From contig PFJX01000034.1 in NCBI GenBank assembly GCA_002784045.1, positions 1 through 32,257 on the forward strand: DNA of 32,257 nt, written 5' to 3'. Origin of the DNA: Hydrogenophilales bacterium CG_4_10_14_3_um_filter_63_21. Lineage in GTDB: Bacteria > Pseudomonadota > Gammaproteobacteria > Burkholderiales > Thiobacillaceae. A program made the position numbers and the translations under genes. This document shows, in pieces, positions 8,228 through 32,033 of this stretch (positions within the stretch are counted from its first letter, which is position 1; every line of letters starts with the position of its first letter). Under the pieces are notes generated by a model that worked only from the letters and a program-made list of their open reading frames with translations, made no database searches and was not told where the DNA came from.

Positions 8228-8557
8228 TCACCCGCTTCCGCTCGTCTCGTGTTGCAGGATGGCGGGCAGGTCGCGTGCGGCGTGCAGCACACGAATCACT
8301 TCGATGGCCTCGGCGCGATACAGATAGAAAATCAGGTGGGGAAAGCCTTTGACCGGCCACATCCGCAAATTCACACCGGGCAGCAGATGGGCGTATCGCG
8401 GTGAGCCGATACCTGGCTGTTCACACAACAGTTCGAAGGCGGGCTTGATGGCTTCGAGAAACGCGCCGGCGGCGGCAGGATTTTCGTCGAAAAGGAATGC
8501 GGCGGCATGGTCAATGTCCGCCGTCGCCAGCGGCCGGACGCAGAGTGGGAACTTCAC
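8228..8557 (-). CDS. RelE/ParE-family toxin
   Basis: A 109-residue protein with the ParE/RelE fold pattern: an N-terminal strand VRPLATADIDHAAAFLFDEN leading into helices, a middle hinge PGIGSPRYAHLLPGVNLRMW, and the typical C-terminal strands FPHLIFYLYRAEAIEVIRVL followed by HAARD. ParE-type toxins poison gyrase, whereas RelE-type toxins cut mRNA on the ribosome; the sequence does not settle which applies. The start is GTG 8557, inside a GTGA overlap with the antitoxin stop, which is the usual coupling for these modules. The downstream genes follow without a terminator, so the module may be co-transcribed with the DUF6883/DUF4926 genes. Confidence 0.85.
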   Translation of the reverse strand: MKFPLCVRPLATADIDHAAAFLFDENPAAAGAFLEAIKPAFELLCEQPGIGSPRYAHLLPGVNLRMWPVKGFPHLIFYLYRAEAIEVIRVLHAARDLPAILQHETSGSG

Positions 8558-8790
8558 CGCCCCAGCCTGGCGCGGCGTTCGGCCCAATAATCGGCGTCCA
8601 CCGGCGCGGCAACGCCTGATTCCAGCCCCTGGCGCAGTAGATCGGTCAACCGCTGTTCGGCGCGGCGCACCTGATCCTGGCGGATCAACTCACGCACATA
8701 TTCGCTGGAGGAGCCATAGCCGCCATTCTCGACGCACTGGTCGACGAAGCGCTTGAGGCTATCCGGGAGAGAAACATTCATCGTGGTCAT
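8554..8790 (-). CDS. ParD/CopG-type antitoxin
   Basis: A 78-residue protein beginning MTTMNVSLPDSLKRFVDQCV, a ribbon-helix-helix DNA-binding N-terminus (strand NVSLP, then helices ending at SSSEYVRELIRQD). An acidic and basic C-terminal tail (RLTDLLRQGLESGV and beyond) follows and normally wraps the toxin. Two in-frame ATGs are possible, at 8790 and 8781. It lies before and overlaps the ParE/RelE gene by 4 bp, and such antitoxins usually repress their own promoter. The reading frame stays open upstream to 9000 but shows no family features there. Confidence 0.87.
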   Translation of the reverse strand: MTTMNVSLPDSLKRFVDQCVENGGYGSSSEYVRELIRQDQVRRAEQRLTDLLRQGLESGVAAPVDADYWAERRARLGR

Positions 8791-12860: not shown

Positions 12861-13481
12861 TTATCCGTAACTGGGGATGTCCTGGCGGGCCTCGATCTGC
12901 AATGGCCAGCCGAACAAATCGTGAAAGGCGAGGCTGAAACCGGGGGCGACACGCAGGGTGAGCGTGTTTTCCGCCAGCAGCACCTCGGATTCGGGATAGC
13001 GCCCGTCCGCGCCCAGGCTGTACAACTCGGCAAAACGGTAGGCCGGGTCGATCAGCAGATATTGCGGCACGCCGGCGGCCTCATACAGACGGCGCTTGTG
13101 TTTGCGATCCTTGGCGGCGGTGCTCGGTGAGAGCACTTCCACCACCAGATCCGGCGCGCCGCGCACCCGGCCGTTCACCACGATGGTGGGGTCGCACACC
13201 ACGATCAGGTCGGGCTGCACCACGGTGAGGTCGGAGAGGATGACGTCGATGGGGGATTCGAGAATGTCGCAGGGCGGCTCGCCGCCACCGGATTTCAGGC
13301 GTTCGCGTTGATGCAGCGCCAGTTCGACATGCAGCGCCGCCACCACCTTCTGGTGGTCGTAGCCCGGGGCGTTCATCTCATACGGAATGCCGTCGATCAG
13401 TTCATATCGCGTGCCGTCCTCCGGCCAGGTCAGGTACTCCTCGACGGTGTAACGCTCGTCCTTATGTAATGCGAAGCCCAT
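12861..13481 (-). CDS. Uma2-family (DUF820) PD-(D/E)xK nuclease-like protein
   Basis: A 206-residue protein of the Uma2/DUF820 family, which has a restriction-endonuclease-like fold. The visible core is [20 protein letters not shown], then [29 protein letters not shown], and [14 protein letters not shown]. The Asp and Glu of the PDLVVE strand and a following Lys are the expected catalytic set. The family is abundant in cyanobacteria and scattered in Proteobacteria, often in many copies, and its biological role is poorly defined. Here it is wedged between gatA (12 bp gap) and gatB (5 bp gap), in the same direction, so it is surely co-transcribed with the amidotransferase. It looks like an insertion into the operon. 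Confidence 0.85.
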
Positions 13482-13493
13482 GATCGTCTCCTA

Positions 13494-14954
13494 TCAAAGT
13501 GTCGGCGCCCGTGTGTGCCAGTCGCTCGCCAGTTGGTACTGGTGCGCCACGTTCAGCATCCGCGCCTCGGCGAAATAATCGCCGATGAGTTGCAGGCCGA
13601 TCGGCAGGCCCTGGGCGTCGAAGCCGCAGGGCAGGCTCAAACCCGGCAGGCCGGCGAGGTTGACGGCGATGGTGTAGATGTCGGAGAGGTACATCTCGAC
13701 CGGGTCGGCGGTTTTTTCATTCAGCTTGAACGCGGTGGTGGGCGCGGTGGGGCCGAGGATGACGTCGCACTGCTTGAAGGCCTCGACGAAATCCTGGGCG
13801 ATCAGGCGGCGGAGCTTCTGCGCTTGCAAGTAATAGGCGTCGTAGTAGCCGTGCGAGAGGACGTAGGCGCCGATCATGATGCGCCGCTTGACCTCAGGCC
13901 CGAAGCCTTCGGCGCGGGTCTTCTCGTACATCTCGGTGAGATCGCCATACTCGGGGGTGCGGTAGCCGTAGCGCACGCCGTCGAAGCGCGACAGGTTGCT
14001 GGATGCTTCCGCCGGCGCCAGGACGTAATAGGCAGCGACCGATAGCCTGGAATTGGGCAGGGCCACTGCCACGGCTTGCGCGCCCAGCTTCTTCAACGCA
14101 TCGATGGCTTGCTCGACCGCGCGGGCAGTTTCGCCGGAAAGTCCCTCGCTGAAGAATTCGCGCGGCAGGCCGATTTTCAGGCCGGCCAGGGGACGGGAGA
14201 GGTCGCGGGTGTAATCCTCTTTCTCGCGTTCCAGGCTGGTGGAGTCACGCGCATCGAAGCCGGCCATGACGTTGAGCAGCAGGGCGCAATCCTCGGCGGT
14301 CCGCGCCATCGGCCCGGCCTGATCGAGGCTGGAGGCGAAGGCGATCATGCCGTAGCGCGACACCACGCCATAGGTGGGCTTCAGGCCGGTGATGCCGCAC
14401 AGCGCCGCCGGCTGGCGGATGGAGCCGCCGGTATCGGTGCCGGTCGCCGCCGGGGCGATCCGCGCCGCTACCGCCGCCGCGCTGCCGCCGGAGGAACCGC
14501 CGGGCACGCGCGTGGTATCCCAGGGGTTCTTCACCGGGCCGTAGAAACTGGTCTCATTGGAGGAGCCCATCGCGAACTCGTCCATATTGGTCTTGCCGAG
14601 CGTGGGCATCCCGGCCGCCTTGAATTGCTCGATGACGTGGGCGTCATAGGGCGAGACGAAGTTGGACAGCATCTTCGAGCCGCAGGTGGTCAACCAGCCT
14701 TCGGCGCAAAAGATGTCTTTATGGGCGATCGGTACCCCGATGAGCGGCCCGGCGGGGTTGCCAACACTCCCGGCGGCGCGGCGCGCATCGGCGGCGGCAG
14801 CCTCGGCCAGAGTCTTGTCAGCAGCGACGGTGATGAAGGCGTTGAGCGTGGGGTTCAGCCGCTCGATGCGGCCCAGGGTGTCCTGGCACAGTTCGACGCT
14901 GGAGATTTTGCCCGCGGCGAGGAGGGCGGAGAGGGATTTGATCGTGTCGGTCAT
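13494..14954 (-). CDS. gatA: Aspartyl/glutamyl-tRNA amidotransferase subunit A
   Basis: A 486-residue amidase-signature enzyme that hydrolyses glutamine to supply ammonia to GatB. The Ser-cisSer-Lys triad is visible: Lys79 in [10 protein letters not shown], the cis-Ser in [14 protein letters not shown] (about 154), and the nucleophile Ser178 in [12 protein letters not shown]. The length is normal. It follows gatC after a 48-bp spacer that can form two competing hairpins, unlike the tighter spacing in most gat operons. Confidence 0.97.
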
Positions 14955-24084: not shown

Positions 24085-25308
24085 TCAGTCGAAACCACGA
24101 AGGTTTTCAGGATCAATCCCCGCCAGCGCGGCTTGAACCCAGGCAAAACCGATCCGCTCTTGCTCCAGCCGCACAGCCGGCCCGATCCGGTCGTGGCGCA
24201 AATCGTCGTACAAACCGGCTTCATCGGCCTGGAGCCGGCTCAATGCCCGCTGCGTGGGCGTGGCTTCCCGCCCCCACAACGGCCTATGGGCCAGCAAGGT
24301 GGCGCGATCCATCAGGAGTGAACGGGCGTGCGGAAAGTGGCTGCGCAACTGGTCGAGGATGGCGAAGCCGTGGCTGTCGATGTCGCCCCAGTAGAAGATT
24401 TCCCGCGCCTGAAGCCAGCTTGCCTCGGCCAGTGGGTCGAAGCCGTAGCCGGCGCCGAAGATCACCAGGCTGTCGGGTACGCGGGGGAAGGCCAGGAAGT
24501 TGATCTCGTTTTCCGTGATGAAGACCCGCCGGGCGGGGAGCGACAAGCGGGCGAACTCGCCGCAGGGCACGGAGAGGTCGGTCAATCCGTGGAACGGCGC
24601 GTCGAGCAGGCGGAAACGGATCGCCAGCGGCTTGGCGCGAAAGCCGTAGCGCCGCTCAAAGCCGGCCGCGCCGCTGGCTGAAGCGGCGGCGATGGCCGCC
24701 GCCGGCAGCACCAGATCGAGCAGTTCGGACAGCAGGGCGCGGTGGCGCTCGATGAATTTGGAATGCACGCCGGGCACGTCGATCTGGCGCAAATAGACCT
24801 TGGGGCGCGGGTGCTTGGCGATCCAGCGCAACACCCCCAGCAGCCCCGGCCAGTCTTCCGCCTGTTCCAGGACGCGCAAGGGGCGTTTGGCGAGCCAGGT
24901 TTGCAGTTGCGGAAAGGCCTGGGAAATTGTGCCGGCAATCTCGTGAAACCGGGCCGCTTCGCGCCGCTTGCCGATCAGGGCCAGGGCATCGCCCTCGGTG
25001 TCGAGCCAGGCCGCCACCGGCACCTGGTTGCGGCCGAGTTGGCGATGGTTGATTTCCTGGAATTCCAGGCGGTAGCCGGCGCTGCTTCCGCTCTTCCCAG
25101 CCTCGGCCTTGGCGCCCTCGGCGAGGGCGTGTATCCACTGCCGCACGGCGTCGAATTGGTCCGCCAGCAGCGCGGTGGTAGGGCCTTTCAGGGGAATCCG
25201 CCAGGGATACAGCGCCTCGCCGGTCAGGGAAAGCGAGAGCAGACGGCCGCGTTCCCAATCGCGCAATACGCGGCGACGGAGGTCGGCGGCGGAGGTCCAG
25301 TCGGTCAT
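24085..25308 (-). CDS. jetD: Wadjet protein JetD (TOPRIM nuclease subunit)
   Basis: A 407-residue protein of the DUF3322/DUF2220 type, the JetD subunit of Wadjet, which cleaves small circular DNA after loop extrusion by the JetABC SMC complex. The TOPRIM core is intact: the Glu of VFITENEINFLAFPRVPDS (about 261-279) and the Asp pair of EIFYWGDIDSHGFAILDQLR (about 301-320). The N-terminal region (DLRRRVLRDWERGRLLSLSL) matches the DNA-binding part. It is last in the operon, and its ATG overlaps the jetC stop by 4 bp. The gene itself looks undamaged although its partner jetC is broken. Confidence 0.9.
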   Translation of the reverse strand: MTDWTSAADLRRRVLRDWERGRLLSLSLTGEALYPWRIPLKGPTTALLADQFDAVRQWIHALAEGAKAEAGKSGSSAGYRLEFQEINHRQLGRNQVPVAAWLDTEGDALALIGKRREAARFHEIAGTISQAFPQLQTWLAKRPLRVLEQAEDWPGLLGVLRWIAKHPRPKVYLRQIDVPGVHSKFIERHRALLSELLDLVLPAAAIAAASASGAAGFERRYGFRAKPLAIRFRLLDAPFHGLTDLSVPCGEFARLSLPARRVFITENEINFLAFPRVPDSLVIFGAGYGFDPLAEASWLQAREIFYWGDIDSHGFAILDQLRSHFPHARSLLMDRATLLAHRPLWGREATPTQRALSRLQADEAGLYDDLRHDRIGPAVRLEQERIGFAWVQAALAGIDPENLRGFD

Positions 25309-26084
25309 TTTCCGTGCGCCGCTTTCTCCGCCCGGTACTCCGCAATGGTGAGATTGCGCAGCAGCGATTCCCGCCCATCCGCGTTGTGCACGAAGCCGAC
25401 GTTGGCCACATAGGGTTCGATGATGTGGATTTTCTGGAGCGGGGTGACGATCAGCAATTGCAGGTTGAGGCGCTGAAACAGTTCCAGGCCGAAGCGCGCG
25501 GATTCGTCCGAGCCGCGCCCGAAGGCCTCGTCGATGACCACGAAACGGAAGGTGCGGGAGTTCACCGCGCCCGCTTTTTCGTGCAACTCAAGCCCAAATT
25601 GGTAGGCCAGGCTGGCCGCCAGCACGGTGTAGGCCAGTTTCTCCTTCTGGCCGCCGGATTTGCCGCCCGAGTCGGTGTAGTGCTCGTATTCCTTGCCGTC
25701 TTCGCGCCAGCGCTCGGCGGCCGCGAACACGAAGCCGTTGCGCACGTCGGCCACCTTGCGGGTCCAGCGCCGGTCCAGGTCGGTCTGCCCCTCGCGGCCC
25801 CGGAAGCGCTCGATGATGGCTTTCACCTGGAGGAATTTCACCTCGGAATATTGGGCGTCCTCCGAGCCGGTCAGGCTGCCCTCGGTGCAGGCCCGCAGTT
25901 CGCTCTGGAAGTCGCGGATCTCCGGGTCCGGGCTAGTCTGCGCTTCCAGTTCGATATAGCGGCCGGGGTTGTAGTCGATCTGGCGCAAGGACTGGTTGAT
26001 GCGCTCGATGCGTTCCTTGATGGTCTGCCGTTCGCGGGCCAGTTGCGACTGGAAATTGGCCACCTCGCGGATGGTGTTCTCGTT
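25305..26084 (-). pseudogene. jetC: jetC C-terminal fragment (signature and Walker B lobe)
   Basis: The frame resumes JetC homology at NENTIREVANFQSQLARER (from 26084) and stays open for about 259 codons to the jetD overlap. It carries the ABC signature SGGKSGGQKEKLAYTVLAAS (about 25670-25610) and the Walker B segment RFVVIDEAFGRGSDESARFG. The corresponding N-terminal lobe is 2 kb upstream at 28125-28838, and the roughly 600-residue middle is missing from the window. An in-frame GTG at 26063 is the only standard start near the junction, and it has no clear ribosome site. Instead AAGGAG lies at 26116-26111, right at the ariB stop, with only ACG codons in range. A separate C-lobe polypeptide could be made but is not assured. 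Confidence 0.8.
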
Positions 26085-26114: not shown

Positions 26115-27008
26115 TTAAACCACTTGATCCAGCATCTGCTTCAGAGCCGAGAAGTCCTGCGGCATCGTGTCTTGGTGGGATCGGAGGAGGTCCACAGCAA
26201 CTGCTCGCTGAGCGCTGCGTCCGCTCAGCCGTGCGTTGCCTCCTTTCGAATTGTCTGGGACAACAAACCATTCGCTCACCATGGAATGGAAGAATGCCTT
26301 GCTAGACATCAAATCCCTCCAACGGCCATGCCCCCAAGTCAAAGGGGTGTTGCCGCCCGACAAGACTTCAACCTCTTTATCAAAATCCAGTCGCACCCGC
26401 TGTTTTGCCAGTTCCTTCTTGGCGGTGGTGGCAAGGTCTTGCAGCAACGGCGACGAAACCAGCTTTTCAACCACTTGATCCCTGCTACACCCATACAGGT
26501 CTCCTTGCTTTAACAGACTTCCGGGGCTTCGTTTGACGCGGTTGCGTTTCGCAATAAGTACACGGTTTGCCGCCTCCAGCCACAATACTTTGCTGGCCTC
26601 TACTGCCAACCACAGACCAAGATCAACAGATGTTTTGCCGGGTTTGAAGTACTTGCTGTTGCATACCCAGGCGGGCTCAAGGAAATGGTTTTCCAACTCT
26701 TTACGACGCCAGATCAGGAGGTTGTCCTTAGCTGGGTCTGGAAAGCCACCCCAGGATGCGTCCACTGTCGCATCGTCCCAATCGTCTCGGTCGATGACGA
26801 ACCAGTATTCGGGATGGAACTCGTGCAGTGCTGTGGCCACAGACCGAACCGAAAAGCTGGCGCCCAAGGGCTCTACGCGCAGCTTTGGCGTGAGAAGTTC
26901 ATGCAGAACTGTCACGTCGAGACCGTCCTTCGTACCCTCCACGAACAAGATGTGTTGTGCTCCTTGCAGCACTTCCTGGGAGGTGGCACCCGTGCGAACA
27001 GTGAGCAT
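26115..27008 (-). CDS. ariB: DUF4435 TOPRIM nuclease, AriB-like (PARIS)
   Basis: A 297-residue protein with TOPRIM features: HILFVEGTKDGLDVTVLHEL (19-38, catalytic Glu24) and YWFVIDRDDWDDATVD (68-83, Asp73, Asp75 and Asp76). These are followed by LLIWRRKELENHFLEPAW (97-114), a stretch typical of DUF4435. In PARIS systems AriB is the DUF4435 effector, held by the AriA ATPase and released when a phage anti-restriction protein is sensed; it then cuts host tRNA. Gene order (ATPase first, 6-bp gap) fits. The base composition is visibly lower in GC than the flanking jet genes. Assignment to PARIS rather than another ATPase-TOPRIM pair is likely but not proven; the symbol is tentative. Confidence 0.68.
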   Translation of the reverse strand: MLTVRTGATSQEVLQGAQHILFVEGTKDGLDVTVLHELLTPKLRVEPLGASFSVRSVATALHEFHPEYWFVIDRDDWDDATVDASWGGFPDPAKDNLLIWRRKELENHFLEPAWVCNSKYFKPGKTSVDLGLWLAVEASKVLWLEAANRVLIAKRNRVKRSPGSLLKQGDLYGCSRDQVVEKLVSSPLLQDLATTAKKELAKQRVRLDFDKEVEVLSGGNTPLTWGHGRWRDLMSSKAFFHSMVSEWFVVPDNSKGGNARLSGRSAQRAVAVDLLRSHQDTMPQDFSALKQMLDQVV

Positions 27009-27014
27009 GGGCGG

Positions 27015-28112
27015 TTACCCTCTCTGGAGCATTACGCGACGATCTTCGGTGACAGAACCAAAGATTTCCTCTGAATGTGTCGCGAGGATGTACTGATTTT
27101 TCGGTGCCATCTCGGCGAGCTTGCGCACGAAAATGCGCTGCCACTCCGCGTTCAGGTGAAGCTCCGGTTCGTCAATTAGCACGATGCTCGGGCGCTCCTG
27201 CGTCATGTACCAGACGAGGAATAGCGTTGCGATGATTTCCTTCTGACCAGAGCTGAGCCCGTCGAAACTGAAAGAGGCGCCACCGCCGACGGGGGTCACG
27301 CGCAACTCCAGCGTTCCATCGGGGCCGGGCCGAAGCTTGTCCACCGTTCCACCGGCAAAGTCGCGGATGAGCCCATTGAGCCGGTCGAGGATCGCTTGGT
27401 TGTCGCTCTTGGAGTCCATTCCTTCGAACAATCCACTCTTGGTCATGAGCGCCTGAACCAGGACGACTTTGAAGGTGCTGAGCGGACCGGGTCCGCCGAA
27501 ACGGCGCGGCGGGTATCCACGGCGGGCGAAGGTAGGGTCAACCATCGCGCCAAGAGCAGAACTTCCTTCCAGTACTTTTCGATAGGAGTGGAAGAGCAAA
27601 ACGGGGGGAACAATCAACGGCTCACTGTTCATTCCCAGCAAAGAATCCAGCAGCTCTCCTTCCTCGAACAGTTCGTTATGTCGCCAAGCGCTATCGAATT
27701 TCTTTCGAAGACTGGTTTCTTCATGTGGTTTAAAACCCGAGGGGCCAAGTTCCAAACCAACCTCATGGGCGCTTCTGTCGACGCTGATCTGGGCGTGGAT
27801 CGTCGCCTTGTCAGCTCCGGAGCGGATCAAGAGGTTGTGCAGAGCAAGCGGTGCCCGTGGACGGTGATCCCGCTGGAGAAGCTCGGGGAAGACCGCACCA
27901 ATCAATGCGAGTGCGCAACACTCCAGCAATGAGCTCTTGCCAACCCCATTCTTGCTGCCGAGTACGAACGCATCGAGCTGGTCGGCAGTGGACGGAGCTG
28001 GAAGTTCTAGTTCCAGTTTGTCGAGCGATTTGTAGTTTTCGACTGTGATCTTGGCGAGGCGCAGAGATGGCCAAGGTTTTTCTGGTGTGGTCCGGGATTT
28101 GCGGAGAGCCAT
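27015..28112 (-). CDS. ariA: AAA/ABC-type ATPase, AriA-like (PARIS)
   Basis: A 365-residue SMC/ABC-type ATPase without long coiled coil. It has KITVENYKSLDKLELELP at the N-terminus, Walker A GSKNGVGKSSLLE (52-64), the signature SFDGLSSGQKEIIATLFLV (about 280-298), Walker B PSIVLIDEPELHLNAEW (about 306-322), and the switch ILATHSEEIFG. This set fits AAA_15/AAA_21 ATPases of defence systems; with the DUF4435 gene behind it the best match is AriA. It starts at ATG 28112 with AAAAGGATCG upstream, 12 bp after the stop of the jetC N-terminal fragment, so it may be read from the jet promoter. Alternatives are an OLD-like or Septu-like ATPase. Confidence 0.7.
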   Translation of the reverse strand: MALRKSRTTPEKPWPSLRLAKITVENYKSLDKLELELPAPSTADQLDAFVLGSKNGVGKSSLLECCALALIGAVFPELLQRDHRPRAPLALHNLLIRSGADKATIHAQISVDRSAHEVGLELGPSGFKPHEETSLRKKFDSAWRHNELFEEGELLDSLLGMNSEPLIVPPVLLFHSYRKVLEGSSALGAMVDPTFARRGYPPRRFGGPGPLSTFKVVLVQALMTKSGLFEGMDSKSDNQAILDRLNGLIRDFAGGTVDKLRPGPDGTLELRVTPVGGGASFSFDGLSSGQKEIIATLFLVWYMTQERPSIVLIDEPELHLNAEWQRIFVRKLAEMAPKNQYILATHSEEIFGSVTEDRRVMLQRG

Positions 28113-28124
28113 CAGGCGATCCTT

Positions 28125-28838
28125 TTACGGTACGTGATTCGAATGACAGGGGCGGAGCATAAAGGATTGGAAAGTCAAACACCTATCATGGAAATCTGCG
28201 TGAACACCGCTTGAACCAGACGTATGACTGGTTTTGCTGCGTGTGGCGCCATAAGGCGGGAAACTGTCGAACAGGTCGATGCCACGGCGGCCGCGCAGGC
28301 GGCGGCGCAAATCGTTGATGTCGCTGCCGAAGCCGGCGAAGTCCAGGGCGATGGACAGGTCTTTCTCCGCCGCCACGAAGAAGCGCGCCGGCTGGCTCTG
28401 GGCATCTTTCAGCCAGAACACCTGGGCCAGGGTCACGCTCTGGTCGAAGCCGGTGTTGCGGAACACCCCCAGCACCACCGAATAGGCGTTGTGGTCGCGC
28501 AGGGCCACCGGCTTCGCCGCCAGGCCGGCGTCGGCCCGCTCCGACTTGTAATGGCCCAGAACATAGGAGCGCAAGGTGCGCTCCCGCGCCTCCGCCCCGG
28601 CCGCCTTGTTGTAGGCGATGCGCTGCGCCGGCACCAACAGGGTCGTGACCGCATCCACCAGGGTGGACTTGCCGGAACCGATGTCGCCGGTCAGCAGCGC
28701 GTTGTCGCCGTTCAGCGTGAGCGTCCACACCCGCTTGTCGAAAGTGCCCCAGTTGTAGACCTCCAGCCGATGCAGGCGGAAACCGGCTTGTGCGTCGCCG
28801 GCGGAGAAGTCGAGGGCGGCAGTGGCGGGTTCAGTCAT
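28125..28838 (-). pseudogene. jetC: jetC N-terminal fragment (Walker A lobe)
   Basis: The first ~198 codons are good JetC, the SMC-like ATPase of Wadjet: HRLEVYNWGTFDKRVWTLTL, Walker A GDIGSGKSTLVDAVTTLL (51-68), then RLRGRRGIDLFDSFPPYGA. At that point (about 28244) the similarity ends. The remaining 39 codons, rich in His and Ser, are read from the inserted DNA up to TAA at 28125. A complete JetC is roughly 1,100 residues, so the coiled-coil arms, hinge and C-lobe are absent from this ORF. Its ATG overlaps the stop of a ParE-like toxin gene by 4 bp, so it should still be translated. Confidence 0.82.
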
Positions 28839-29134
28839 GGCAGGTAGCGATCCATATCGAGAGCACCGTGGAACACGCCAAGAATCTCGATGGCCTTCGT
28901 ATCGGTCCGATGCAGGTAGACGATGCGGTAGTGGCCATACAGGATCATTCGCACCTCGCCTTCGGGCACGATGCGCAAACGTGTGCCGAGGTCGGGGAAG
29001 CTGGTCAGCAGTTCCGCCTTCCCGACTATCCCGTCGATGACCTTGGCGGCTGCGGTCGGGTTGTCATGGGCGATATAGCGATGGATGTTCCCCAACCAAT
29101 CCAGCGCCTCATCGGTCCATCTCAATTCCGCCAT
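28835..29134 (-). CDS. RelE/ParE-family toxin inside the jet operon
   Basis: A 99-residue protein starting MAELRWTDEALDWLGNIHRY, with the ParE pattern of two helices (ending AKVIDGIVGKAELLTSFP), the turn DLGTRLRIVPEGEVRMILYG, and the C-terminal strands HYRIVYLHRTDTKAIEILGV followed by FHGALD. Its start overlaps the antitoxin gene by 13 bp, and its TGA overlaps the jetC ATG by 4 bp. A toxin-antitoxin module therefore lies between jetB and jetC with translational coupling on the jetC side. Confidence 0.88.
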   Translation of the reverse strand: MAELRWTDEALDWLGNIHRYIAHDNPTAAAKVIDGIVGKAELLTSFPDLGTRLRIVPEGEVRMILYGHYRIVYLHRTDTKAIEILGVFHGALDMDRYLP

Positions 29135-29328
29135 GAATGGATTCTCCGAACAGCCTCTTCATGGCTCACCGTGCGTCCAGCGCGGGCATCAGCCAAGCCC
29201 CGTTCGACCATGCGCTCGAAGGCCAGCTCACGCATGATTTCCTCATAGCTGGCATCTTCGGGCTGCGCTTCGATCACCTCGCGCAGCAAGGCCTTGGCAC
29301 TGGGTTTTTCTTCCACTTGGGCAGCCAT
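29122..29328 (-). CDS. Antitoxin partner of the ParE-like toxin
   Basis: A 68-residue acidic protein. The stretch AQPEDASYEEIMRELAFERM and the final TVSHEEAVRRIHSWRN are typical of small antitoxins paired with RelE/ParE toxins (the SHEE-x-x-x-R-x-x-x-W ending is common). The ATG at 29328 is chosen because AGGAG lies 7 bases ahead; the GTG at 29334 is too close to that site. No strong DNA-binding domain is evident. Confidence 0.8.
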   Translation of the reverse strand: MAAQVEEKPSAKALLREVIEAQPEDASYEEIMRELAFERMVERGLADARAGRTVSHEEAVRRIHSWRN

Positions 29329-29569
29329 TTCCACTCTCCTTTGTCGGCCGCGATATTTGCCGACGATGTTTTCCGGTCACCGGCGACACCCGGGGACGAT
29401 GCGTTCCGTTCCTCACCCCATCCTACCGCCCCTCCGGTCACACTGGGCGGAGTAGGCAAGGGGAGAAAAGACCTTCCAGGGGGGCATATCGTGCTGGCCA
29501 ATAAAGCAGTCCTGCCATGTCCACGCCACTGTCGGCCTGGATTTCAAGCACTCCACTGCACACGCCCGC

Positions 29570-29702
29570 TCACAACCAGCCCAGCAGCCAGGGCCAGACC
29601 AGGCGTTCCACGAGTTGCGGGTCTTTGCCGTGGGCGAAGGCCAGGGCGATGGATTCGTCGCTGCAATGCCAGACCCAGGGGTGGGGCGCTATCGGTGTCC
29701 AT
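29570..29702 (-). pseudogene. Remnant of an unrecognised gene
   Basis: In one minus-strand frame the DNA reads PHPWVWHCSDESIALAFAHG, then KDPQLVERLVWPWLLGWL and TGA at 29572-29570. The composition and pattern look like real protein. The only ATG nearby (29702, MDTDSAP) is in the neighbouring frame, and a single-base shift in the run of C would join the two into a protein of about 45 residues. I do not recognise the family. Confidence 0.35.
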
Positions 29703-29730
29703 GAGGTGTCGACGAGGTGTCGACGAGGTG
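29703..29730. repeat. 11-bp tandem repeat, 2.5 copies
   Basis: The unit GAGGTGTCGAC begins at 29703 and 29714, with a partial third copy GAGGTG at 29725-29730. It lies at the start of the gene remnant, suggesting slippage or recombination in dead DNA. Each unit contains GTCGAC, itself a palindrome. Confidence 0.8.
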
Positions 29731-29828
29731 AGTCCTGCCTGTGGTTTGTTTTCCTGGCCCGGCGCGGTCGGGCTGCCGTGGCTGCGGAATTCTAGCCGCT
29801 TTGGCCGAATCACCTTGCGGACCCAACC

Positions 29829-29957
29829 GTAGGGTGGATGCACTGTGCTTATCCACCCTACCGCAGCTTCATGGTGCGCACGGCGCACCCTACTTGCTTG
29901 CCGGACCTGAAGCGTAGGTTGGGAATGTTGGGCTTCCTGGCGTCAGCCCAACCTACG
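29829..29957. repeat. Cluster of three different hairpin repeats
   Basis: Three separate inverted repeats stand in a row: GTAGGGTGGAT/ATCCACCCTAC (29829-29839 and 29851-29861), GGTGCGC/GCGCACC (29873-29889), and CGTAGGTTGGG/CCCAACCTACG (29913-29923 and 29947-29957). All contain or adjoin a GTAGG/CCTAC edge. Similar GTAGGGTG and GTAGGTTGGG hairpins are scattered in many beta- and gammaproteobacterial genomes. Here they follow jetB at 8 bp and could end the jetAB transcript. Confidence 0.75.
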
Positions 29958-29964
29958 ATTTGCA

Positions 29965-30594
29965 TCACTCTGACACCTCCAACCCCGCTAACTGCGCCCG
30001 ATACCCCCCCAGCCGTTGGTCGAACTCGGCCAGCCATTGGGCATCGACGAAGGCTTTGAGGAGGCGGCGCACCTCGAAGGCCGGCTCGCCGCCGGGCGCT
30101 TTCAGGCGGCGCACGAAACCCAGTTCGATGATCTTGTTGATATGGGTGTCCACCTGGTCGATCAATTTCGCCTCATTGCTGCCCGAAGGCAGAAATACCC
30201 GGATCAGTTCGACGATCTCGTCACGGGTCAGGATCAGCCTCGTATCGCCACCCCCGGCATCGAACTCGGCCAGTTTCTTGCGCAGCAGGGCCAGGAGCAG
30301 GCTGACCGGGAAGGACAGGGCGCGGCGCTGCACCAGGCGCGGCAATTCGGTTTCGCCTTCATGGAGGGGGCGGGTGCGCAGGAAGGCATAGCCCTCGGCC
30401 TCATCGAGCAGCAGCTCCAGGCCCAAGACCGCGACGTGGTCGCGCACGCGGGCTTGCAAAGCGAGCAGGTCCTGCCACAGCGGCGCGTCGCCCTCGCGGT
30501 AGACGACGCCTTTCATCAGCCCGACCAGGACCCGCGATAACGCAACACCCTGCTCAACACCGTGCGTCGATTCCATCGTTTCCATGATGCTCAT
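29965..30594 (-). CDS. jetB: Wadjet protein JetB (DUF4194, KleB-like)
   Basis: A 209-residue protein of the DUF4194 family, the MukE-like subunit of the Wadjet SMC complex that bridges JetA and JetC. It is built of winged-helix-like units, with EGYAFLRTRPLHEGETELPR and the long helix PVSLLLALLRKKLAEFDAGG, then LTRDEIVELIRVFLP and IDQVDTHINKIIELGFVRRL. Its ATG overlaps the jetA stop by 4 bp, as expected for this operon. The gene is intact. Unlike the usual arrangement it is not followed directly by jetC but by 1.1 kb of repeats and a toxin-antitoxin pair. Confidence 0.88.
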   Translation of the reverse strand: MSIMETMESTHGVEQGVALSRVLVGLMKGVVYREGDAPLWQDLLALQARVRDHVAVLGLELLLDEAEGYAFLRTRPLHEGETELPRLVQRRALSFPVSLLLALLRKKLAEFDAGGGDTRLILTRDEIVELIRVFLPSGSNEAKLIDQVDTHINKIIELGFVRRLKAPGGEPAFEVRRLLKAFVDAQWLAEFDQRLGGYRAQLAGLEVSE

Positions 30595-32033
30595 CTCGTG
30601 AAAATCACTCTCGGCAAGGTTGCCCGCCTTGGCTTCCCGGTCGCATCCAGCCAGGCCACCGATGCTCGCGTGTCTTCGTCGAACAGCGATTTGCGATCCT
30701 CGCTGGCCAGCGTCAGCCAGGCGACCAGTTCGGCCAGGCCGTGCTCCAGCGGATGCCGTTCCAGCAGTTCGCTCAAGCTGACCTGCGACTGCTCTTGCAG
30801 GGACTGGCGGACCCAGCCGGCCAGCCGCGCCTTGTCCACCACGATGTGGCCAAACAGGGCATCCGTTTCGACTTCCGCCTCGCCCTCCAGCAACACCTGA
30901 TCGGCGATCACCGGGCGGATTGGCGGCGTATACAAGGGGCGCTCCATGGGCAACTCGATGCGGGGTGACGCTTCGTCCAATTCCATGAAGGCGTCCATGG
31001 GCGGCGCCTCGCGCAGCGCCAGCGCCTGGGCCTCGATGCCGTGCAGCACTTCCATGATGCGGCGGTTTTCCAGCCAGGCCTTGTCGTCGAGAAAGCGGCG
31101 CAACTGCATGGATAGCAGCGCCACCGTGCGCTGGGTGTGCTCACCGGCTTCCAGCCAGTCGTAGTGGACGCGCTTCAGGCGCCCATCCGGCGCCAGGGAC
31201 TGCACCGCCGCGAGGCCGAACACCGACTCCAGCAACGCCGTTAGCTCCTCCTGCCGGGCCGGCGACATCAAAAAATCCCAAAAGGCGCGAAAACTGCGGC
31301 CCTGGTCGGAATCGGCGATGGCATCGCGCTCGCCGAAGATGCTTTCCAGCGGGGCGCCCTTGCCGCCCTCCCACAAGGCGATGCGCTCGCGCACGCTGCG
31401 GTCGAGGTTGCGGAAGTTCTGTTCCACCTCGCGGAAGTCCGAGAGCAGTTCGCGCGCCGTCGCCGCCACCTGCTGAAACCGATCTTTCACCGCCGTATCG
31501 TCGAGCAGCGCCATTTCCCCCTCGCGCACGCGGGCAATCTCGGCGTCGATCTCTGCCCGGCGCTTCTCCAACTCACGGATGCGCGCCTCGGGGTCGGTTT
31601 CCGAACCTTCCACCATCTGCCGCAACAGCTCGAACACCGTCATCAAGCGCGACTCGGTGCCGACGAAGGCGCGCTGGGCCAGGCCCTCCAGCCAGGCCAG
31701 GGCCTTTTCCGTCGATGGGGTGAGGTCGAAATGCGCCTCATCGGAACCGGGCGGATAGAACTTGCGCAACCAGCCCTTCTCGTTGGTCGCCCAATCGTCC
31801 AGATAGTACGCGGCGGAACGTGGGAAAACGCCCTCGCCCAGCGTCTGGCGCAGGCCGAACAGGACATCCTCCAGCTTTTCCACCAGATCGGCCTGGGCCA
31901 TCACCCGCACATTGGGCAGCACGAAAACCTGATGGAGAAAGCTCGCCACCAGCGGCGCATGCGGCGAATCGAGCAGGCGCCAGGCCGGGTGGTTGCGGCG
32001 CAGGGTGTCGAGGGTGGCGTAGTCGAGGGGCAC
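30591..32033 (-). CDS. jetA: Wadjet protein JetA (DUF3375, MukF-like kleisin)
   Basis: A 480-residue protein of the DUF3375 family, the kleisin-like subunit of Wadjet. The N-terminal helical domain begins MPLDYATLDTLRRNHPAWRL and includes AAYYLDDWATNEKGWLRKFY. A coiled coil follows (RIRELEKRRAEIDAEIARVR, about 150-170), then LRRFLDDKAWLENRRIMEVL, and a C-terminal winged region ending VAWLTLASEDRKSLFDED. The start is GTG 32033; no ATG is better placed. It is the first gene of the jet operon, and the next gene overlaps it by 4 bp. No frameshift or stop is seen. Confidence 0.9.
   Translation of the reverse strand: MPLDYATLDTLRRNHPAWRLLDSPHAPLVASFLHQVFVLPNVRVMAQADLVEKLEDVLFGLRQTLGEGVFPRSAAYYLDDWATNEKGWLRKFYPPGSDEAHFDLTPSTEKALAWLEGLAQRAFVGTESRLMTVFELLRQMVEGSETDPEARIRELEKRRAEIDAEIARVREGEMALLDDTAVKDRFQQVAATARELLSDFREVEQNFRNLDRSVRERIALWEGGKGAPLESIFGERDAIADSDQGRSFRAFWDFLMSPARQEELTALLESVFGLAAVQSLAPDGRLKRVHYDWLEAGEHTQRTVALLSMQLRRFLDDKAWLENRRIMEVLHGIEAQALALREAPPMDAFMELDEASPRIELPMERPLYTPPIRPVIADQVLLEGEAEVETDALFGHIVVDKARLAGWVRQSLQEQSQVSLSELLERHPLEHGLAELVAWLTLASEDRKSLFDEDTRASVAWLDATGKPRRATLPRVIFTR

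Follow-up and report, generated by a model that had tools for sequence, protein, structure and literature searches.

A ParE-family toxin–antitoxin pair at the jetB–jetC junction of a type I Wadjet operon, and other occupants of that junction in related operons

Described counterparts of the arrangement reported here include defence loci that carry additional genes. In CreTA, a toxin–antitoxin RNA guard of CRISPR-Cas in which a toxin–antitoxin unit is physically linked to the defence locus, the toxin is repressed through the guarded effector, Cascade, under the direction of an antitoxic RNA (PMC9458426). The auxiliary or backup effectors of BREX, too, are additional genes, for nucleases or HEPN/MNT proteins, that lie inside core defence loci (PMC12839542), and the SMC–HicA fusion is related in spirit (PMC10865869). 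Nested defence cargo is a known idea; we found no description of a recurrent slot for it in Wadjet operons, nor of genes nested between jet genes, in a literature search that covered titles and the beginnings of abstracts (subscription papers and preprints lay outside its scope), and the available part of a Wadjet review (PMC10586767) contains no word starting with "insert" or "toxin". As for the junctions themselves, reporter work found strict translational coupling in 13 of 14 tested pairs of overlapping genes (PMC6728339), and a spacing of about 20–40 nt largely removes such coupling (PMC10666635). Among co-directional genes, overlaps of 4 bp and 1 bp far outnumber any other spacing (PMC10666635), so an overlap taken alone is ordinary.

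The toxin–antitoxin pair and its place in the operon

The window (the whole stretch of DNA analysed here, 32,257 nucleotides of contig PFJX01000034.1 from Hydrogenophilales bacterium CG_4_10_14_3_um_filter_63_21) carries a type I Wadjet operon on its minus strand in the order jetA, jetB, toxin–antitoxin (TA) pair, jetC, jetD. We use G000 for this genome and its operon; other G- and L-numbers are labels of the compared genomes and loci. The operon resembles described type I Wadjet (JetABCD) anti-plasmid operons in the order of its four jet genes, all of which are recognised by PADLOC: the type I models (JetA1–JetD1) match JetA, JetB, both of the pieces into which JetC is divided, and JetD, the E-values ranging between 4e-225 and 1e-91. 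jetA (30591..32033; 480 aa, GTG start; PDLC00457 JetA1, E 4e-225; DUF3375) and jetB (29965..30594; 209 aa; PDLC00474 JetB1, E 1e-91; DUF4194) are followed by a gap (29329..29964) with palindromic repeats and no recognised gene, and then by the antitoxin gene (29328–29122; 68 aa, with an ATG start, a GTG at 29334 being also possible), which overlaps the toxin gene (29134–28835; 99 aa) by 13 nt. The toxin TGA (28837–28835) and the jetC ATG (28838–28836) in turn share the bases ATGA (28838–28835). These coordinates, together with a Pfam match of the toxin to ParE_toxin (PF05016, E 8e-15, above the gathering score), confirm an earlier sequence-only reading of this DNA, which had described a TA pair between jetB and jetC with a 4-bp overlap at the jetC start. 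A correction concerns the jetB side of the pair, where 636 bp separate the jetB stop from the antitoxin ATG and no overlap exists.

Two features that the sequence-only reading had named as possible evidence against itself were looked for. A sequence scan of the 636-bp gap, which is a weak test, found neither a promoter-like nor a terminator-like site that would isolate the pair, and the jetC start at 28838 is sound, given that jetC opens with the same ATGAC(T/C)GA in G017, G021 and G014. The window contains two further 4-bp ATGA overlaps between jet genes, at jetA/jetB (30594–30591) and between the 3′ part of jetC and jetD (25308–25305).

The toxin belongs to the ParE/RelE superfamily and also matches the PDB entry 6x0a_A (plasmid stabilization system; E 9e-6). 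For the antitoxin, searches of Pfam, NCBIfam and PADLOC at E 1e-3 gave no family. A recognised antitoxin family is no defining requirement for a type II TA system. At E 1e-12, toxin homologues occur in 18 of the 369 genomes of the class, this genome included, and we examined 15 homologous TA loci (L179–L193; the three weakest rows, L194–L196, were left out). An antitoxin homologue lies directly upstream of the toxin in all 15, the 13-nt antitoxin/toxin overlap is identical in 12 of the 15 pairs, one toxin frame (L190) is shortened, and the flanking sequence retrieved with each locus (up to ~1.5 kb) contains no jet gene. The toxin gene ends in ATGA in 4 of these 15 jet-unlinked loci. More distant toxin relatives (<60% identity) are found in 70 of 72,556 plasmid records and in 1 of 50,697 phage records, and the Shine–Dalgarno sequence of the window antitoxin is strong (−9.1 kcal/mol). 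The pair is most readily understood as an autonomous type II TA module with putative toxin and antitoxin activity, and as a TA module it would be ordinary. Elsewhere in the window, a second and distant ParE-like toxin frame is present on the minus strand (8228–8587; matched over 8261–8500, E 5e-4).

The same pair occupies the same junction in G017, a genome of the same genus, in which the toxin is 92% and the antitoxin 88% identical. Between the two operons dN/dS is 0.14 for the toxin and 0.165 for the antitoxin, indicating purifying selection, and dS is 0.29 and 0.45, respectively, alongside 0.51 for jetB, 0.35 and 0.54 for the 5′ and 3′ parts of jetC and 0.45 for jetA (the lowest of these six values is that of the toxin, though the genes are short). 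Because dS is similar for the TA and jet genes and dN/dS is low (0.14–0.17), long co-residence under selection is suggested; on the simplest reading, the pair would have resided in the operon for roughly the time since the operons separated, with both of its proteins conserved.

The jetB–jetC junction outside and within the lineage

JetC matches were surveyed in GTDB contigs (best 80 of 579), in the class (best 30 loci, with matches in 98 of 369 genomes), in the phylum (29 loci, with matches in 31 of 398 genomes) and in family searches, giving 157 entries that represent 145 distinct operons, 139 of them outside the lineage defined below. jetB lies upstream of jetC on the same strand in 135 of these 139 operons, and in 134 of the 135 the gap is shorter than 100 bp (jetC starts being projected from the profile), which bears out the earlier statement that jetB and jetC are normally adjacent. 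The commonest spacing is an 8-bp overlap (61/135), compared with the 4 bp by which cargo and jetC overlap in the window. Indeed, jetB–jetC is the tightest jet junction outside the lineage: a single operon of 135 has an insert longer than 300 bp there (G333, 2.9 kb), and gaps of that length occur in 10 of 119 operons at jetA–jetB and in 10 of 97 at jetC–jetD. The G333 insert (L173 8558–11459; another family) comprises two MNT–HEPN-like pairs, the HEPN side of which falls below Pfam cut-offs, and places TA-like cargo at jetB–jetC without any overlap. The four operons that have no jetB on the contig side are L084, the contig of which ends at once upstream of jetC; L081 (=G069), with 2.2 kb upstream that contains YefM/YoeB-like and MazF/CopG pairs on the opposite strand; and L102 and L023, which show other ORFs. 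Of the operons with large gaps at the other two junctions, L087, L132 and L232 probably have a jetC divided between frames and no insert, to judge from the survey figures.

Cargo also occurs at the other junctions. Gene content there was read for L074, L078, L133 and L113, and an ORF listing covered L088, L122, L151 and a set of loci that lack jetA (L068–L071 and L073). The Accumulibacter operons L074 (2944–7360) and L078 (4869–9364) carry a SIR2 protein (Dsr1-like in L074) and BrnT between jetA and jetB, L133 carries HEC-01 between jetC and jetD, and L113 carries a DUF1016_N fragment between the same two genes (13375–13824) with an ATGA overlap at both ends. A 66-aa ORF that follows BrnT in L074 is CopG-looking by eye and has no Pfam match; a 61-aa ORF in the jetC–jetD gap of L081 likewise has none. 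On plasmids, the N-terminal part of JetC was matched at E 1e-20 in 5 of 72,556 records, and the single plasmid jet region inspected (L240, Candidatus Thiodictyon syntrophicum) has no insert.

We define the jet lineage as those members of the genus whose JetC N-terminal part is at least 85% identical to that of the window, the window included (n = 7); L063 (87%, genus unknown, no insert) was counted outside. A comparison of junctions among relatives, as the sequence-only reading had proposed, finds cargo genes between jetB and jetC in four of the seven lineage operons (G000, G017, G021 and G011) and in 1 of 135 outside; counted over every genus member that matches JetC at E 1e-20, the figure is four of nine. 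The Fisher p for 4/7 vs 1/135, 1e-5, was not used as a test, the groups having been drawn post hoc and the loci being related.

The contents of the junction differ among these operons. The TA pair is the cargo of G000 and G017. That of G021 (L022 2389–7739) consists of a 1400-aa NACHT-like NTPase (NACHT E 4e-5, slightly below the Pfam cut-off) and a 379-aa DUF1016/YhcG-type nuclease (PADLOC PDC-S02), with ATGA overlaps on both sides, and that of G011 extends over ~10 kb (L062 9326–19023), where a type III-like methyltransferase and a weakly matching Res-like protein enclose a PD-T4-4-like ATPase with its partner and an OLD/AriA-like ATPase, the stop of the Res-like gene overlapping the jetC GTG start (GTGA). 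In three of the cargo-bearing operons (G000, G021 and G011) a 4-bp overlap joins the final gene of the cargo to the start of jetC; in the fourth, G017, toxin and jetC are 106 bp apart, and this palindromic stretch (L021 4802–4907) folds to −54 kcal/mol with the toxin stop codon included. The jetC frame is intact in G021 (1140 aa), G011 (1132 aa) and G017 (1129 aa). No gene lies at the junction in G008, G009 or G014; G008 has a palindromic stretch of 133 bp between jetB and jetC (L024 3421–3553), which with its flank folds to −62 kcal/mol, and the N-terminal part of the G014 jetC is spread over two frames.

Taken together with the survey, TA cargo is present in five of the nine gene-cargo operons that were read (G000, G017, G333, L074 and L078) and no recognised TA in the other four (G021, G011, L133 and L113), and the occupants match known or candidate defence families (DUF1016/PDC-S02, PD-T4-4, Dsr1-like, HEC-01) in addition to TA pairs. 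The jetB–jetC junction thus looks like a slot with changing contents in this Wadjet lineage, of which the TA pair would be one occupant. Traces of older cargo were sought in the gaps. Among the cargo proteins tried, none gave a convincing match in the G000 gap; in the G017 gap, 27 alignment columns that include HGIYLVGW match the C-terminal region of the NACHT-like protein of G021 (E 5e-4 in a tiny database), a hint of a possible older-cargo remnant. The N-terminal part of JetC is 96% identical between G000 and G011 and 88% between G000 and the TA-bearing G017, and because G000 groups with G011 and not with G017, a single TA capture is unproven and would need repeated loss or exchange between lineages. 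The flanks share a few bases (CATGA in G021, TGACG in G011, CCATGA at the G017 palindrome and ATGATCC at the G008 palindrome); a target-site duplication was rejected as proof of transposition, since any stop–start overlap by itself imposes ATGA or TGA at both ends and the few additional identical bases carry no weight.

The interrupted jetC of the window

In the window, jetC is divided into two fragments. The 5′ fragment (28125..28838, minus strand; PDLC00512 positions 4–197) encodes JetC to about codon 198 and continues in a foreign reading to its stop, and the 3′ fragment (25305..26063, minus strand; PDLC00512 875–1120 of 1123, E 1e-135) resumes at about residue 870 of the G011 JetC and leads into a complete jetD (24085..25308, minus strand; 407 aa; JetD_C, DUF3322; PDLC00530, E 1e-152). 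The ~670 absent codons, which lie between the two halves of the JetC ATPase, are replaced (28242–26064, minus strand) by an AAA-ATPase gene (27015..28112; 365 aa, AriA/PtuA-like; PF13304/PF13175) and an ORF of 297 aa (26115..27008). A full-length JetC profile matches just the two pieces in this genome, and the missing middle, queried with the corresponding stretch of G017, is absent from G000 and present in G008, G011, G017 and G021. The inserted genes have a G+C content of 55–57% (0.57 in the ATPase gene) compared with 0.63–0.68 in the jetC pieces.

jetA, jetB and jetD are complete and jetC is not, which leaves the type I Wadjet set incomplete. Because ~670 jetC codons are missing, Wadjet is very probably inactive in this genome, given the assembly as it stands; the assembly is rated 99.92% complete and consists of 174 contigs, so an assembly join error at jetC is possible. 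To call Wadjet intact here from jetA, jetB and jetD alone would be misleading. The earlier claim that the pair is coupled to the downstream jetC has to be divided accordingly: the ATGA overlap and the jetC start are upheld, but what lies downstream is the first ~198 codons of a broken gene.

The inserted ATPase matches PtuA (E 9e-24) and AriA (E 6e-19) in PADLOC. The 297-aa ORF has no match in Pfam, PADLOC, NCBIfam, plasmids or IMG/VR, and PDB gave nothing useful; in 274 genomes of the class there are two weak partial matches besides its own locus, its residues 11–79 are weakly similar to two longer ORFs, and its AlphaFold model (no alignment) has a mean pLDDT of 36. The ATPase gene and this ORF are in the same frame, separated by one TAA and two codons, and the OLD-like protein of G011 aligns across the TAA (26%, E 2e-6). 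Given the shared frame and the alignment across the stop, the two may represent a split ATPase–TOPRIM-like unit.

Origin of the overlap and comparison with known systems

The Shine–Dalgarno sequence of the window jetC is weak (−3.1 kcal/mol, a value matched in weakness by 3 of 52 native loci, the mean of which is −7.9). Cargo-free related operons have values of −7.7, −9.5 and −7.8 (G014, L063 and G009), the sites of G021 (−6.9) and G011 (−5.5), which carry cargo, are stronger than that of the window, and the window jetB (−3.4) and jetD (−2.7) are as weak as jetC. A stop–start overlap or very short spacing is a feature of translationally coupled gene pairs, and the toxin/jetC ATGA is such an overlap. 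The weak Shine–Dalgarno sequence makes it plausible that, in an ancestor with an intact jetC, JetC output was set by termination and reinitiation at the end of the toxin gene. To this extent the suggestion that the pair sets JetC output can be retained for the ancestor. The G017 jetC frame is open with no Shine–Dalgarno sequence (+1.2) and is separated from the toxin by 106 bp, which indicates that the overlap is not obligatory; either coupling is dispensable in G017 or its jetC is poorly made. The overlap in the window looks like more than a chance junction, because ATGA recurs at two other junctions and two unrelated cargos (G021 and G011) also overlap the jetC start, in keeping with the earlier remark that such an overlap is unexpected for a random insertion.

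We consider it probable that an autonomous TA module was captured in a tolerated slot and that the overlap was kept because jetC translation is coupled to the preceding gene. A type II TA module would have entered at jetB–jetC, on the simplest view ahead of the split between the G000 and G017 operons, into a slot whose contents turn over between a TA pair, a NACHT-like NTPase with DUF1016, and a type III R-M-like/PD-T4-4-like/OLD-like block. If jetC, the SMC subunit gene, rides on ribosomes that finish translating the preceding gene of a presumably co-transcribed operon, the cargo stop would overlap the jetC start for that reason; arrangements that keep the stop–start overlap would keep JetC made, and such insertions would be those that survived. 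An ATGA ending occurs in some toxin genes of this family, which could themselves supply the ATG. The antitoxin, which presumably neutralises the toxin, would be translated from its own strong ribosome site, and the toxin would be coupled to it via the 13-nt overlap. In the window genome, the coupling would by now be vestigial, because a second insertion (the ATPase gene and the 297-aa ORF) replaced the middle of jetC. It is rather unlikely, in our estimation, that the junction is a true exchange slot, in which recombination swaps payloads, the ATGA fusion to the SMC gene is kept and the payload is made in step with JetC; here a 4-bp overlap would itself permit swapping: both genes stay whole when 4 bp are duplicated, as they would not with the 8-bp overlap that is most frequent in other Wadjet operons.

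Three other accounts were weighed against capture with a retained overlap. A mobile TA could have landed at random, with the 4-bp overlap arising from a later deletion and no functional link either way. The dispersal of TA homologues (18/369 class genomes, 70 plasmid records and 1 phage record), the frequency of 4-bp overlaps in general, and a possible remnant and palindromes that suggest a worn region are all consistent with such an event, and yet the same junction is filled in four of seven close operons, three times with overlap of the jetC start, and divergence of the TA has kept pace with that of the operon; we therefore judge a chance neighbour to be unlikely. Under the guard role that the sequence-only reading had offered as one of two possibilities, loss of the Wadjet locus would leave a long-lived toxin without its antitoxin. 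Although TA modules recur in type I Wadjet operons (five of the nine gene-cargo operons read) and the pair is under purifying selection, the other four of those operons hold no recognised TA, the same TA is found without jet genes nearby (flanks up to ~1.5 kb) in all 15 loci, and the pair is intact where jetC has lost ~670 codons. Nor does the toxin appear to depend on any Wadjet protein, a complete protein antitoxin being present. A guard role is neither shown nor favoured, is a weaker idea than capture of an autonomous TA, and seems to us quite improbable. The toxin might instead be a second Wadjet effector, made in proportion to JetC and released when invaders disturb the operon. The coupled, overlapping gene order and the match of other cargos to defence families would fit; however, no shared sensor or domain is seen, a complete antitoxin is retained with its own ribosome site, and Wadjet is broken in the window genome, and we give this account very little credence.

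If the slot inferred here is real, Wadjet operons would be carriers of other immune genes, and stop–start junctions would mark where to seek new ones. The operons G000, G017, G021 and G011, together with the cargo-free G009, offer natural comparisons for the stoichiometry of an SMC complex with a foreign gene between jetB and jetC.

Among known systems, the pair is closest to type II TA modules of the ParE/RelE superfamily, with which it shares a small antitoxin gene that comes first and overlaps a gene of the ParE_toxin family, and conservation of the pair across other genomes; it differs in an antitoxin without family match and in its position inside a defence operon, where it overlaps the operon's next gene. 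In contrast to CreTA, both toxin and antitoxin are predicted proteins and no dependence on Wadjet is visible. The auxiliary effectors with which the cargo invites comparison are described for BREX and related systems, in an article of which the main text, in the part available, does not contain the word "wadjet". Relative to type I Wadjet itself, the operon differs in the foreign genes between jetB and jetC and in its interrupted jetC. What sets it apart is that one Wadjet lineage apparently has a cargo slot that is filled repeatedly, for the most part with the overlap kept, and that in the window Wadjet itself is broken.
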